Assembly: GCA_022616515.1 (NCBI GenBank)
Contig: JAKEEQ010000528.1
Coordinates: 1 to 34,243, forward strand
DNA length: 34,243 nucleotides
From: Chloroflexota bacterium
Lineage (GTDB): Bacteria > Chloroflexota > Anaerolineae > Aggregatilineales > J027
Direction: 5' to 3'
The notes beneath the pieces are model-generated. The model worked only from the letters and a program-made list of their open reading frames with translations. It did not search any database and was not told the origin of the DNA. A program made the position numbers and the translations under genes. Of the stretch, positions 25,663-30,928 are shown one piece after another. The stretch's first letter is position 1, and every line of letters begins with the position of its first letter.

Positions 25663-25726
25663 GACGCCCCGTTGGGCGTCCCTACGACGGCGTTCGCGAT
25701 TCCGGTAGGAACGTGCAACGGCACGT
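25663..25726. repeat. REP-like palindromes
   Basis: GACGCCC-CGTT-GGGCGTC (25663-25680) and ACGTGC-AACG-GCACGT (25711-25726); a related GGACACCCCGTTGCGTCC lies at 25835-25852. Confidence 0.65.
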
Positions 25727-26001
25727 CCAAATTATGGAATTTAAACCACCCTCCACAAGATCATACGTTGTCAGCAATCGTTCCCCGACCATGACCACAT
25801 AGCGCAGTCAACATGGTATGTTCAACCCTGTTTAGGACACCCCGTTGCGTCCCTACCCACCGCATCGCTTTTCGCGTGAAGGACGACAACTGTGCCCCTG
25901 CCCCAACCAAAAACATACCGTATGGTTTGAACCAGCTTTCTCTCTTGGAGTCCGGTAGGTTTAGTGCTATAAATCAGAAGGTGAATACCAACTTGAAATG
26001 A

Positions 26002-26394
26002 TAGTCAACTACCCCGCCGCAAGCGACGGGGCATGTCGGAGAGTAGCGGTCTTGCCAACCGTGAAAAGACATGGGTAAGCGGTTGACTAGCCTACCCAAG
26101 CCGTAATCTCATTGAGGCTAAGGCGTTTGAAGGGAACTCGCAACCTGGGTGTGGCAGCCCACAGCACAGTACGGATGCCTCCCTAGTCTGTACGCCTCTG
26201 CGGTTGTGAGTGGCGAAGCGGTTAGTTGCCCCCGCAAGGGGAGATGGTGGGGTGACTCACCAGCGTCTTACCGACGTTAAAGGTTCATGGGCTAGAGGCG
26301 CGGCCCCAAAGCGTCTCACCTTATTCGACTTGGTACGAAAGGGGATAGGCGCTCCTCCCCGCCGCAAGCAGCGGGGTTTCCGCGCTAAAACAAG
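26002..26394 (+). ncRNA. Candidate HEARO/omega-RNA-like structured RNA element without IscB ORF
   Basis: Near-identical hairpins CCCCGCCGCAAGCGACGGGG (26012-26031) and CCCCGCCGCAAGCAGCGGGG (26357-26376) bound a region with many short stems (GGGTA/TACCC, CCCC-GCAA-GGGG, GAGGCGC/GCGTCTC, CGTC/GACG); right end is immediately 5' of ATGA. Confidence 0.6.
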
Positions 26395-26398
26395 ATGA

Positions 26399-29300
26399 AT
26401 GACTGATCTTACCGGACAAACCATTAAAGGTTACGAAATCCGCGAAATTATCGGGCAGGGGAATTTCGGGGCGGTGTATAACGCCTTCCAGCAATCCATT
26501 GCTCGTGAAGTAGCGCTCAAAGTTATCCTCCCCAACTACGCCAATCGCCCGGATTTCATCCGGCAGTTTGAAACCGAAGCACAACTGGTGGCCCGGCTGG
26601 AACACCCGCATATCGTGCCGCTGTTTGATTACTGGCGGGAACCGGACAGCGCCTATATTGTGATGCGCCTGCTGCCGACCAGCATCCGGGCCGAACTGCG
26701 CGAAAATGGGCGCTTCGATCCGGCGTCAACGGTGCGCATTATCGAGCAGATGTGTTCGGCGCTCAATCTTTTCCACCTGCAAAACATCGTACACCGCGAC
26801 ATCAAGCCGGATAACATGCTGCTGGACTTTAACCACAACGTCTATGTGTCCGATTTCGGGCTGGCGAAGTTCCTGTCCGATGAGACGGACAATGAAGAAG
26901 GCATTGCCGGGTCACCGGCCTATATGTCGCCGGAGCAAATTCGGGGTGAGGATTTGACGCCGCGCTCGGATATTTACGCGGTGGGGATCATTATCTATGA
27001 AATGCTGACCGGCAGCCATCCCTTTGCCGGATTGAAACTCTCGTCGGTGATTACCAAGCAGTTACGCGAACCGCTGCCGCAGATTTCGGTGCAGTTACTG
27101 CCACTGCCGGGTGCGGTAAATGATGTCATTCAGCGAGCGACTGCCAAAGACCCGGCCCACCGCTACAAGAGCGTGCTTGAGTTGGCGGCGGCGTTGCGGG
27201 ATGCGCTGCTTGGGACGGGCGAAACCGTCTTTGAGACGATTGACATGCCGTCGATAGCAGACATTCCCAACCCGTACAAAGGGCTGCGTCCATTTGAGGA
27301 AACGGATGCGGCTGATTTTTATGGGCGGGAAGCACTGGTCGGGCAGATTGTGGAGCGCTTGAATCAGGACCATCCGATGGCCGGTTTTCTGGCGATTGTT
27401 GGCCCCAGCGGCAGCGGCAAATCCAGCGCTATCAAAGCCGGGTTGATTCCGGCGCTGCGACAGGGTTCAATTGTGGGGTCGGATAGATGGTACATTGCGT
27501 CAATGATGCCGGGGACACGGCCCTTTGATGATCTGGCGGCGGCGCTGCTGAGTGTCGCGAGAAAACACATCCCCGACCTAGCCTTGCGACTGAGAACCAG
27601 TAAGAATGGTCTGGTCGAGGCGGTCAACGAAATACTGCGGGGTGAGCAGGCCGAACTACTGCTGTTCATTGACCAGTTTGAAGAACTGTTTACGCTGGTC
27701 AATGATGAAGAGGCGCGGGCGCATTTTATGGATCTGCTCATTAACGCCACTGCCTCGCCGGACAGCCGGATACGCACCATCATCACGCTGCGGGCCGATT
27801 TTTATGACCGCCCGCTGTTGTATGAAGACTTCGGCAGGCTCATTCAGGCGCGGACGCAGGTTGTGTTGCCGTTGAGCACCAAAGAACTTGAACGGGCGAT
27901 TATGAATCCGGCAGAGCGGGTGGGTATTGCCGTGGACACCAATCTCACTACGACGCTCATCAGTGATGTGAAAGAGGAACCGGGCGCACTCCCACTGCTG
28001 CAATACACGCTCACCGAAATCTTTGAGCGGCGCGAGGGCATGTCGATGACACTGAATGCCTATCGTGATCTGGGGGGTGTGGCCGGGGCGCTAGCGCGGC
28101 GGGCGGAACTGGTGTTCAGTGCCCTCTCTGACCAGCAGCAGTCGATAGCAAGGCAGTTATTCCTGCGGCTGGTGACATTGGGGGAGGGTACGGAGGATGT
28201 ACGGCGGCGGGCACTGCGCTCCGAGTTGATCTCAATTGCCCGTGATCATCGTTTGCTGCAAGCTATTCTTGACCTGTTTGGTAAACATCGCCTGCTCAGT
28301 TTTGACCACGAACCTCAAACACGCGAACCCACCGTCGAGATTGCCCATGAGGCCCTTATCCGGGCATGGCAGCGGCTGCGGGTGTGGATTGCCGAAAGCC
28401 GGGCGGATGTACGCCAGCAGCGCCGCCTGAATGAATTGGCGGAAGAATGGGTCAAGGCATCGCGCGAAACCAGCTTTTTGCTGACCGGGCTGCAACTTCA
28501 GCAGTTTGAGGAATGGTCACATTTCACCTCGCTGGCACTGACCGAGGAAGAGCAGGAATTTCTGGAAGCGTCTATTGACGAACGTGAGCGGCGCAGTGAA
28601 TTAGAAGCCCAGCGTGTCGAGCGACAGGCCCAGTTGGAAGAACGGGCGCGTCGTTTCCGGCAGGTGCTGTTGGTGGTGATTTCGGTGGCCTTTGTGGTGT
28701 CGCTGGTCTTCGCCATCATTGCCTACAGCCAGCGCGAAGAAGCACAGGAAGCCAGTGATCGGGCCGAGCAAAACGCCTTCAATGCCCAGACACAGGCCGC
28801 TATCGCCGATGAGCAGGCCGAGATTGCAGCAACGCAGGCTGCCATCGCGGATAATTCGGCGCGTATCGCGCAGGCGAGGGCTGATACCCTCCAATCACTT
28901 TCACTCACTGAGGCGGGCGAAGATGCGATTCTGGAAAATAACTTTGACCTGGGTATTGCGCTGCTACTGGAGGCCAACAGCATCCCCGATTCGCCGCTGC
29001 GGGCACGACAGGTCCTGTTTGACAACGCACCACAGGGGGCAAAACGCCTGCTGCTGGGCCACGAACAGAAGACCAATGCCGTAGCGACATTTGAGGGGTT
29101 GATTGCGTCGGGCAGCGATGACAACACGATCAAACTGTGGGATATTGAGACCGGGGAAGTCGTGCGCACCCTCGAAGGGCACACTGCCCGCGTGAATGAT
29201 GTGGCATTTTTGCCGAGCGGCCTGCAACTCGTCTCAGTTTCCGACGATCAGACAGCCATCTTGTGGGATGTCGAGACAGGCGAGATAGTGCGGGTCTATC

Positions 29301-30928
29301 AGGGCCACACCGATGATGTGCTGGCGGTGGCGACGGATGGACAGGTAATTGTCACCGGCTCACGCGATGAGACGATTATCGTGTGGGAAATCTTCACGGG
29401 CCGCCCGATCCATACCCTGCAAGGCACCCACACCGCCCGTATCACAACCGTCGATCTGTATAGTTCGCTGGTTGTGTCCGGTGGGGCAGATAACCAGATT
29501 GTGGTGTGGAGCTGCAATACCGGCGACCTGCTTCAAGTGCTGGATGCCCATCAAGATGCGATTGTCGATGTGGCTTTTAGCCCCGACGGACAGCGTATGA
29601 TGTCCGTGTCGGCGGATAACCGCATCATTTTATGGAACGTCAATGGCTGGCAAACTGTGTATGCGCGAGTCCTGACGACTACCCAACCAACCAGCCTGTC
29701 GATTAGCCCGGACGGTACTCAGGTAATCATCGGAGACGGTACGCCATTTGCCGGGGATGATGCTGAAAATGTGATTGTGCTGTGGGACCTTGAGCAAGGC
29801 TCCGAGATTCGCCGTTTCTTCGGGCATGACTTTCAGGTGACCGATGTGGCCTTTGCTAACGATGGCGAGTCGATGGTGTCGGCTTCGGCTAGCGGCGTTT
29901 TGCGGCTGTGGCAGGTGGACGCCGAGTCGTATTTCTGGTCATCACAAATCTGGCCCACCGATTTCACGGCAGTTTATGTGGCGGATGACCGCATTGTGGC
30001 TGCGCTGTCCGACCGTTCGCTGGTGCTGTGGAACATGAACGGCGTGGATGATACGCCGACCTATGTGCGCAAATTTGGCTTGAGCGAACACCGCGAAGCG
30101 ATTACTGCTGTCGATGTCTATGGCAACCGGGCGGTAACCAGTTCGCTGGACCGCACCCTTATTCTGTGGAATCTGGATACCTTTGAAATCATCGCCCGCA
30201 TGGAGGGCCATACCAATCAGGTGCACGGCGTGGCCTTCAGCCCGGATGGCACACGGATTCTGTCCGGGTCCCGTGATCGCACACTCATTTTGTGGGATGG
30301 CGAAACGGGCGAGTTGTTACGGACGTTTTCCGCCGACCACACGAACAGCATCAACGCGGTAGCCTTCAGCCCGGATGGGACACGCGCTCTGTCGGCCTCG
30401 GAGGACCGCAGCCTGATCCTGTGGGATGTGGAAAGCGGGGATAATCTGATGCGGCTGCGCGGTCATATGAGCGGGGTGCTGGATGTGGTGTTTTCAGCCG
30501 ATGGTCACACGGCTTATTCGGGGGGACAGGACCAGCTTGTAATTGGCTGGGACCTCGAAACAGGTGTACCTCTCCAACAATATATGGGCCACACCGATTG
30601 GGTCACATCGGTGGATGTCAGTGCTGATGGCGAAACGATGGTGTCAGGGTCGCGAGATCGCACCGTCCTGTTGTGGACTACGGATATATTGGAGCCGGTT
30701 CATCGCTTCCGTGCCGCCGATGAAAATATTTTGCGGGTGGCGCTGTTAAATGAAGATCATGTGGCGGGGGTTGCCTCAGCGGACGGCAACGTGCGAGTGC
30801 TGCCGGTTTCCGCCGAGGCATATGTTGATTGGATCGGGTCCAATCGCTACGTGTATGAATTGACATGTACCGACCGGGCGCTGTATCCGCTCGACCCGTG
30901 CGATACGACTACCGATCAATCCGAGTAA
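26399..30928 (+). CDS. Ser/Thr protein kinase - nSTAND NTPase - TM/coiled coil - WD40-repeat protein
   Basis: GYEIREIIGQGNFGAVYNA, IVHRDIKPDNMLLD, SDFGLA; Walker A IVGPSGSGKSS, Walker B LLLFIDQFEELF; TM VLLVVISVAFVVSLVFAIIAY; ~14 WD repeats (GSRDRTLILWD etc.). Confidence 0.95.
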   Translation: MTDLTGQTIKGYEIREIIGQGNFGAVYNAFQQSIAREVALKVILPNYANRPDFIRQFETEAQLVARLEHPHIVPLFDYWREPDSAYIVMRLLPTSIRAELRENGRFDPASTVRIIEQMCSALNLFHLQNIVHRDIKPDNMLLDFNHNVYVSDFGLAKFLSDETDNEEGIAGSPAYMSPEQIRGEDLTPRSDIYAVGIIIYEMLTGSHPFAGLKLSSVITKQLREPLPQISVQLLPLPGAVNDVIQRATAKDPAHRYKSVLELAAALRDALLGTGETVFETIDMPSIADIPNPYKGLRPFEETDAADFYGREALVGQIVERLNQDHPMAGFLAIVGPSGSGKSSAIKAGLIPALRQGSIVGSDRWYIASMMPGTRPFDDLAAALLSVARKHIPDLALRLRTSKNGLVEAVNEILRGEQAELLLFIDQFEELFTLVNDEEARAHFMDLLINATASPDSRIRTIITLRADFYDRPLLYEDFGRLIQARTQVVLPLSTKELERAIMNPAERVGIAVDTNLTTTLISDVKEEPGALPLLQYTLTEIFERREGMSMTLNAYRDLGGVAGALARRAELVFSALSDQQQSIARQLFLRLVTLGEGTEDVRRRALRSELISIARDHRLLQAILDLFGKHRLLSFDHEPQTREPTVEIAHEALIRAWQRLRVWIAESRADVRQQRRLNELAEEWVKASRETSFLLTGLQLQQFEEWSHFTSLALTEEEQEFLEASIDERERRSELEAQRVERQAQLEERARRFRQVLLVVISVAFVVSLVFAIIAYSQREEAQEASDRAEQNAFNAQTQAAIADEQAEIAATQAAIADNSARIAQARADTLQSLSLTEAGEDAILENNFDLGIALLLEANSIPDSPLRARQVLFDNAPQGAKRLLLGHEQKTNAVATFEGLIASGSDDNTIKLWDIETGEVVRTLEGHTARVNDVAFLPSGLQLVSVSDDQTAILWDVETGEIVRVYQGHTDDVLAVATDGQVIVTGSRDETIIVWEIFTGRPIHTLQGTHTARITTVDLYSSLVVSGGADNQIVVWSCNTGDLLQVLDAHQDAIVDVAFSPDGQRMMSVSADNRIILWNVNGWQTVYARVLTTTQPTSLSISPDGTQVIIGDGTPFAGDDAENVIVLWDLEQGSEIRRFFGHDFQVTDVAFANDGESMVSASASGVLRLWQVDAESYFWSSQIWPTDFTAVYVADDRIVAALSDRSLVLWNMNGVDDTPTYVRKFGLSEHREAITAVDVYGNRAVTSSLDRTLILWNLDTFEIIARMEGHTNQVHGVAFSPDGTRILSGSRDRTLILWDGETGELLRTFSADHTNSINAVAFSPDGTRALSASEDRSLILWDVESGDNLMRLRGHMSGVLDVVFSADGHTAYSGGQDQLVIGWDLETGVPLQQYMGHTDWVTSVDVSADGETMVSGSRDRTVLLWTTDILEPVHRFRAADENILRVALLNEDHVAGVASADGNVRVLPVSAEAYVDWIGSNRYVYELTCTDRALYPLDPCDTTTDQSE

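Follow-up and report, generated by a model that had tools for sequence, protein, structure and literature searches.

Cas9 arose from the lineage of the IsrB and IscB OMEGA elements, and the present analysis bears on how such elements can persist in hosts that they do not kill. The founding work on HEARO, the RNA of IscB elements, reported that it inserts 5' of ATGA or GTGA. The IsrB branch is represented by the OMEGA nickase DtIsrB (PDB 8dmb), a protein with RuvC and PLMP and no HNH, whose TAM is NTGA and whose guide as a rule lies 5' of the RNA scaffold (PMC9581776). Stand-alone omega-RNAs of IscB are already known (cited in PMC9581776). On the side of translation, the closest described cases are two phage T4 genes, 38 and 25: an intervening helix shortens the spacing between the Shine-Dalgarno sequence (SD) and AUG from 22 to 5 nt in the former and from 27 to 11 nt in the latter (PMC3014915).

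The window (the whole stretch of DNA that was analysed, 34,243 nucleotides of a Chloroflexota contig, JAKEEQ010000528.1) carries, directly 5' of a large kinase gene, an element that has no protein gene. Its main features are as follows.

26004-26394, plus strand: the whole mobile unit, very probably a stand-alone IsrB-type HEARO/OMEGA element, 391 nt, multi-copy in its own genome, with edges placed by analogy to the empty sites of sister elements
26012-26031, plus strand: left terminal hairpin, CCCCGCCGCAAGCGACGGGG
26357-26376, plus strand: right terminal inner hairpin, CCCCGCCGCAAGCAGCGGGG
26395-26398, plus strand: ATGA, the putative target/TAM tetranucleotide in host DNA, abutting the right end
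26399-30928, plus strand: host gene for a Ser/Thr kinase - nSTAND1 - WD40 protein of 1509 aa, assigned with Pfam; its start matches the N-termini of homologs, e.g. MTDRSGTTVRGYEL

The initial annotation had described a block of ~390 nt, poor in ORFs and bounded by near-identical terminal hairpins, which served as leader of the kinase gene. Most of this stands: the two terminal-hairpin 20-mers are 90% identical, the element lies directly 5' of the kinase start, and the last 15 nt before the ATG at 26399 do lack an SD. No clear SD is seen in the left flank of this copy either. The edges fared less well. The sister empty sites (see below) moved the start from 26002 to G26004 and the end to 26394, so that ATGA 26395-26398 is target DNA. 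An ATGA at 25998-26001, formerly taken as a feature of the left edge, is flanking sequence and coincidental. It was also considered as a duplicated target and rejected, being absent at other left ends, while the sister empty sites show no duplication. On the right, the kinase ATG is part of a tandem, ATGAATGA, and lies 4 nt beyond the abutting ATGA, a start that is supported by homologs. In the intergenic DNA just upstream of the element, 25665-25685 and 25838-25856 are short GC-rich stretches that resemble each other (CCCCGTTGGGCGTCCCTAC-like).

The family to which the element belongs has common ends, GTCAAC... at the left and ...GCGCTAAAANNNN at the right, the latter followed by ATGA. The search for further copies proposed in the initial annotation found the block, whole or partial, at 25 blastn places in its own assembly. 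These include a near full-length copy on another contig (C218; 89% identity) and a piece on C117 (93% identity). Contig ends truncate several of the copies, a usual outcome where repeats break an assembly. The ORF-less arrangement is found at no fewer than six distinct right junctions of this genome (L001, L002, L003, L005, L006 and L008), and the copies precede unrelated genes. This last observation bears on the idea that the block is a conserved, immobile cis-regulatory leader of the kinase family, for which its position directly at the start codon could be invoked. The initial annotation had named conservation upstream of orthologous kinase genes as the sign of such a leader. Within the family genomes, however, no element match was found upstream of kinase homologs (48-55% identity), and sister elements have empty sites. 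The cis-regulatory leader was therefore rejected, and we consider it extremely improbable. It is very probable that the block is instead a HEARO/OMEGA mobile element of the IsrB branch that has no protein gene and is inserted 5' of ATGA.

In the RNA, which is of the IsrB type, two segments can be delimited.

26004-26283, plus strand: IsrB-type omega-RNA scaffold, from the nhmmer profile, the alignment with isrB-borne copies and compensatory pairs
25984-26003, plus strand: putative guide segment in the 5' flank, AATACCAACTTGAAATGATA, assigned by position, which would serve if transcribed

An nhmmer profile made from 66 RNAs located upstream of isrB, all from other genomes, scores 93.8 bits (E 9.8e-29) against positions 25994-26242 of the window, whereas the Rfam HEARO model (RF02033) gives just 23 bits (E 0.011), below its gathering cut-off of 83 bits. 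The omega-RNA identity proposed at the outset is thus upheld and that of a canonical HEARO is not. With HEARO and IscB OMEGA elements the window element shares its left end (GTCAAC and a CCCC hairpin) and its insertion 5' of ATGA/GTGA, and its right end is common to the HEARO-bearing elements of the same genome; it differs from them by its score, its IsrB-type core and its lack of an ORF. In an alignment of 15 sequences that includes isrB-borne copies, compensatory change is seen at 18 of 36 consensus pairs. Single-sequence folding of the window block yields an ordinary minimum free energy for the whole block (z -0.58), and the structural evidence for this RNA comes from the comparison across sequences. 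The low HEARO score could be taken to mean that the window copy is a dead, degenerate fossil devoid of RNA function, which only lengthens the 5' UTR of the kinase gene. Its degenerate SD, AAAGGGG, and a start codon that is 4 nt off point the same way. However, the copy is 89 and 93% identical to its relatives on C218 and C117, its omega-RNA core is intact relative to isrB-borne copies and its pairing is maintained, so that a fossil seems unlikely. The profile match, the compensatory pairs and the resident IsrB sisters together argue for a stand-alone, protein-less IsrB-type OMEGA element.

In the genome isrB is present in about five copies and iscB, which the initial annotation had suggested looking for, in eight; there are 32 HEARO matches. 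Of these matches 24 are over the cut-off; many have the right end of the window element. Five places share the RNA core only, and there a gene for an RRXRR protein follows directly downstream. This protein is IsrB, since it matches DtIsrB (8dmb) from end to end (E 2.5e-44); it has the RRXRR domain and no HNH, whereas the iscB genes that were examined do have HNH. The isrB matches in other genomes were obtained with an alignment as query, a single-protein query giving none. A solitary omega-RNA element with its effector encoded elsewhere in the genome, as first suggested, is hence supported by the isrB copies present in trans. The likeness to the DtIsrB system (PMC9581776) extends to full-length resident homologs without HNH, to the RNA profile match and to the TAM, NTGA corresponding to ATGA; the differences are that the window copy has no isrB and that the present system is known from its sequence alone. 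Like the stand-alone omega-RNAs of IscB, the window element is an ORF-less omega-RNA locus that could act in trans. Unlike them it is of the IsrB type and forms a short element with both ends, present in at least six copies. We infer, with fair but not strong confidence, that the omega-RNA of the stand-alone copy is used in trans by IsrB.

Three Y1_Tnp matches were detected in the genome, whose assembly is 80.6% complete, and no matching element ends were found in the loci around them. The Y1 transposase on contig C552 was tried as mobiliser and rejected, no matching ends having been found; its locus (L075, G000:C552:6543-6902) contains a full Y1 transposase gene with different terminal hairpins in the flanks and is not evidently the mobiliser. 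A broken isrB in two overlapping frames (288 + 100 aa) exists alongside intact copies (L067, G000:C238). A third type of RRXRR+HNH protein, of 401 aa, is encoded at L063 (G000:C397:5735-6250), a contig with no HEARO match listed. Finally, a Cyclobacteriaceae MAG contig (L251, JALHRJ010000002) encodes an IsrB that is 66% identical to those of Chloroflexota and has their right-end layout; its presence in a Bacteroidota bin would reflect either a recent transfer or mis-binning.

The insertion rule was examined at the right ends. Sequence similarity identified 29 right ends in the window's genome; ATG or GTG follows all of them and [A/G]TGA follows 28, in agreement with the rule from the founding HEARO work and with the initial annotation. 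Among the genomes compared, the window's species has no same-genus or other close relative, and no empty site was found for the window copy. Empty sites were therefore sought for sister IsrB elements in the same family. They were found for three of them (L252, L254 and L255), so that the search suggested earlier succeeded for the sisters and not for the window copy itself. In each case the joined flanks match four related genomes over ~400 contiguous bases at 78-94% identity, and the junctions are base-exact: left flank / GTCAAC ... TTCG or GTTG / ATGA. Nothing is duplicated and nothing is lost, that is, insertion is clean, as with IS200/IS605 elements. By analogy, the window element would extend from 26004 to 26394 with its target at 26395-26398, and its empty site is expected to read CCAACTTGAAATGATA/ATGAATGACTG.

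At each of the three sister sites an intact gene starts with the ATGA; judged from the translations, the products are alpha/beta hydrolase-like, PBP2-like and cysteine desulfurase-like. The SD of the host gene is left stranded upstream of the inserted element, most clearly in L255 (AGGAG-AACAATTCCA-ATG). In the window's genome, an ORF of 100 aa or more begins directly at 19/29 right ends, compared with 14.4% of the ATGA sites in the same loci (p 5e-10, the related copies not being fully independent). An SD tetramer occurs at -20 to -4 of the left flank in 16/32 cases, compared with 7.5% of control windows (p 2e-10). Among 100 HEARO loci taken from elsewhere in the phylum, SD peaks at the same position, though less strongly. 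In some other genomes of the phylum the downstream frame is often short, which indicates that the start-codon bias is not universal.

The right end of the element may provide a substitute for the displaced SD. Right ends from Chloroflexota and Poribacteria have the order AAAGGAG (or TAGGAG), 0-4 nt, 5' arm of a closing helix, TCCTCCCC with the inner hairpin, 3' arm, 6-10 nt and ATGA. In the window copy the corresponding parts are the following.

26338-26344, plus strand: degenerate SD-like box, AAAGGGG, where most sister right ends have AAAGGAG
26348-26352, plus strand: 5' arm of the closing helix, GGCGC, which pairs with 26382-26386 in the minimum-free-energy fold and is supported by the arm-swap test
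26382-26386, plus strand: 3' arm of the closing helix, GCGCU, from the same fold and test

The sequence of the closing helix varies widely while its pairing is maintained. When arms were exchanged between elements, the native mean of 14.96 fell to 10.50 (sd 0.46), and it was reached in 0 of 10,000 permutations. A geometry in which the helix, with covariation, bridges SD and AUG is present in right ends from several phyla. In L255 the original spacing between GGAG and ATG is 10 nt, and the bridged spacing offered by the element is also 10 nt (2 + 8). The AGGAG box lies inside the 3' end of isrB, in frames that differ by group (AAG GAG in L066, AGG AGC in Poribacteria), and it is also present in ORF-less copies, free of coding constraint; this argues for conservation at the nucleotide level. 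As in the split sites of T4 genes 25 and 38 (PMC3014915), a helix would bring a distant SD and AUG together, here to an effective ~8-12 nt. The difference is that here the putative site travels with a mobile element into any gene at which this inserts, and that it has been recognised by sequence analysis only. A pattern for the 16S tail carrying the anti-SD was not found in the assembly. On balance we slightly favour the view that the right end supplies a substitute ribosome-binding site in Chloroflexota and Poribacteria, and hold it with less confidence for the window copy; the closing helix may be maintained purely as a hairpin in DNA, for use by the transposase, and its covariation therefore does not prove a role in translation.

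Indeed, the same element can be interpreted without any such role, the SD-like box and closing helix serving transposition only, as a hairpin read by TnpA and as guide sequences, and the bias reflecting tolerated sites combined with a preference for ATGA. Terminal hairpins are the standard ends of IS200/IS605 elements. The SD is strictly free in only 12 of 46 right ends in minimum-free-energy folds, and in many others AAAGGAG pairs weakly with the U-rich linker or CUCC. Moreover, in a nearly all-cyanobacterial set of IsrB elements, 21/25 right ends are directly followed by an ORF of 80 aa or more, although the cyanobacterial isrB loci (L262-L300) lack the SD-helix layout. The start-codon bias thus does not require the SD-helix, a layout that may follow the reliance of the host on SD. 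On the other hand, families and phyla have the AGGAG box in common despite the differing isrB frames, and ORF-less copies retain it too, and the PBP2-like and cysteine desulfurase-like ORFs are intact though their own SD has been displaced by the length of an element. In the IS608 scheme, moreover, the guide sits at the other hairpin foot when one considers the strand that has the conserved flank here, which does not suit a role of the box in transposition. We consider a function in transposition alone the less probable explanation. The ORFs behind the cyanobacterial right ends include those for FabF-like (L290), LpxC-like (L297) and thioredoxin-like (L280) products.

The substitute binding site can be placed in the following scheme. 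A putative Y1-type transposase, acting in trans, would put the element 5' of ATGA. IsrB from a sister copy would then load the omega-RNA of the element with the left flank as guide. Under the known IsrB rules, an NTGA TAM and a 5' guide (PMC9581776), such a guide would target the empty site, once restored, with ATGA next to it, and a nick there would favour retention of the element. With AAAGGAG 0-4 nt 5' of the closing helix and the 3' foot of the helix 6-10 nt before AUG, the helix would bridge the two. The downstream gene would be translated from the right end, the element re-supplying the binding site that it had displaced; insertions at gene starts would thereby be survivable and the element would become the 5' leader of the gene. 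Taken as a whole, a non-autonomous IsrB-branch OMEGA element that depends on functions in trans and inserts cleanly, its substitute site being credited as above, is a likely description of the locus. A wider proposal is more tentative, and we put it somewhat short of an even chance: HEARO, IsrB and IscB elements may be start-codon-seeking elements that enter between the SD and the AUG of a gene and bring a portable, hairpin-bridged ribosome-binding site, which replaces the initiation region of the host gene. The host leader would then be a guide-RNA gene coupled to translation, and stand-alone copies would spread this arrangement without a protein gene.

In the literature, the founding HEARO/OMEGA/ISC papers aside, we came across no description of elements that insert precisely between the SD and the start codon or that carry a portable split ribosome-binding site. 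A portable site at the right end would offer a simple reason why insertions at gene starts are tolerated. It may also mean that the RNA and downstream translation are coupled in many genes, including those for PBP2-like, cysteine desulfurase-like, FabF-like and LpxC-like products.

Two other kinds of right end deserve mention. A canonical HEARO on the minus strand (L026, G000:C428:3749-3972) has an enlarged right-end loop and keeps the order SD / GCGTG...CGCGC / 7 nt / ATGA; the gene downstream of it (MIGQKLGPYEIMDIIGRGG) is again Ser/Thr kinase-like. A second HEARO family (GTCAGGAACTCC...; L048, L050, L053 and L055 of G000) has an unrelated right-end sequence with the same layout of SD, CCGCA/TGCGG helix, 8 nt and ATG.
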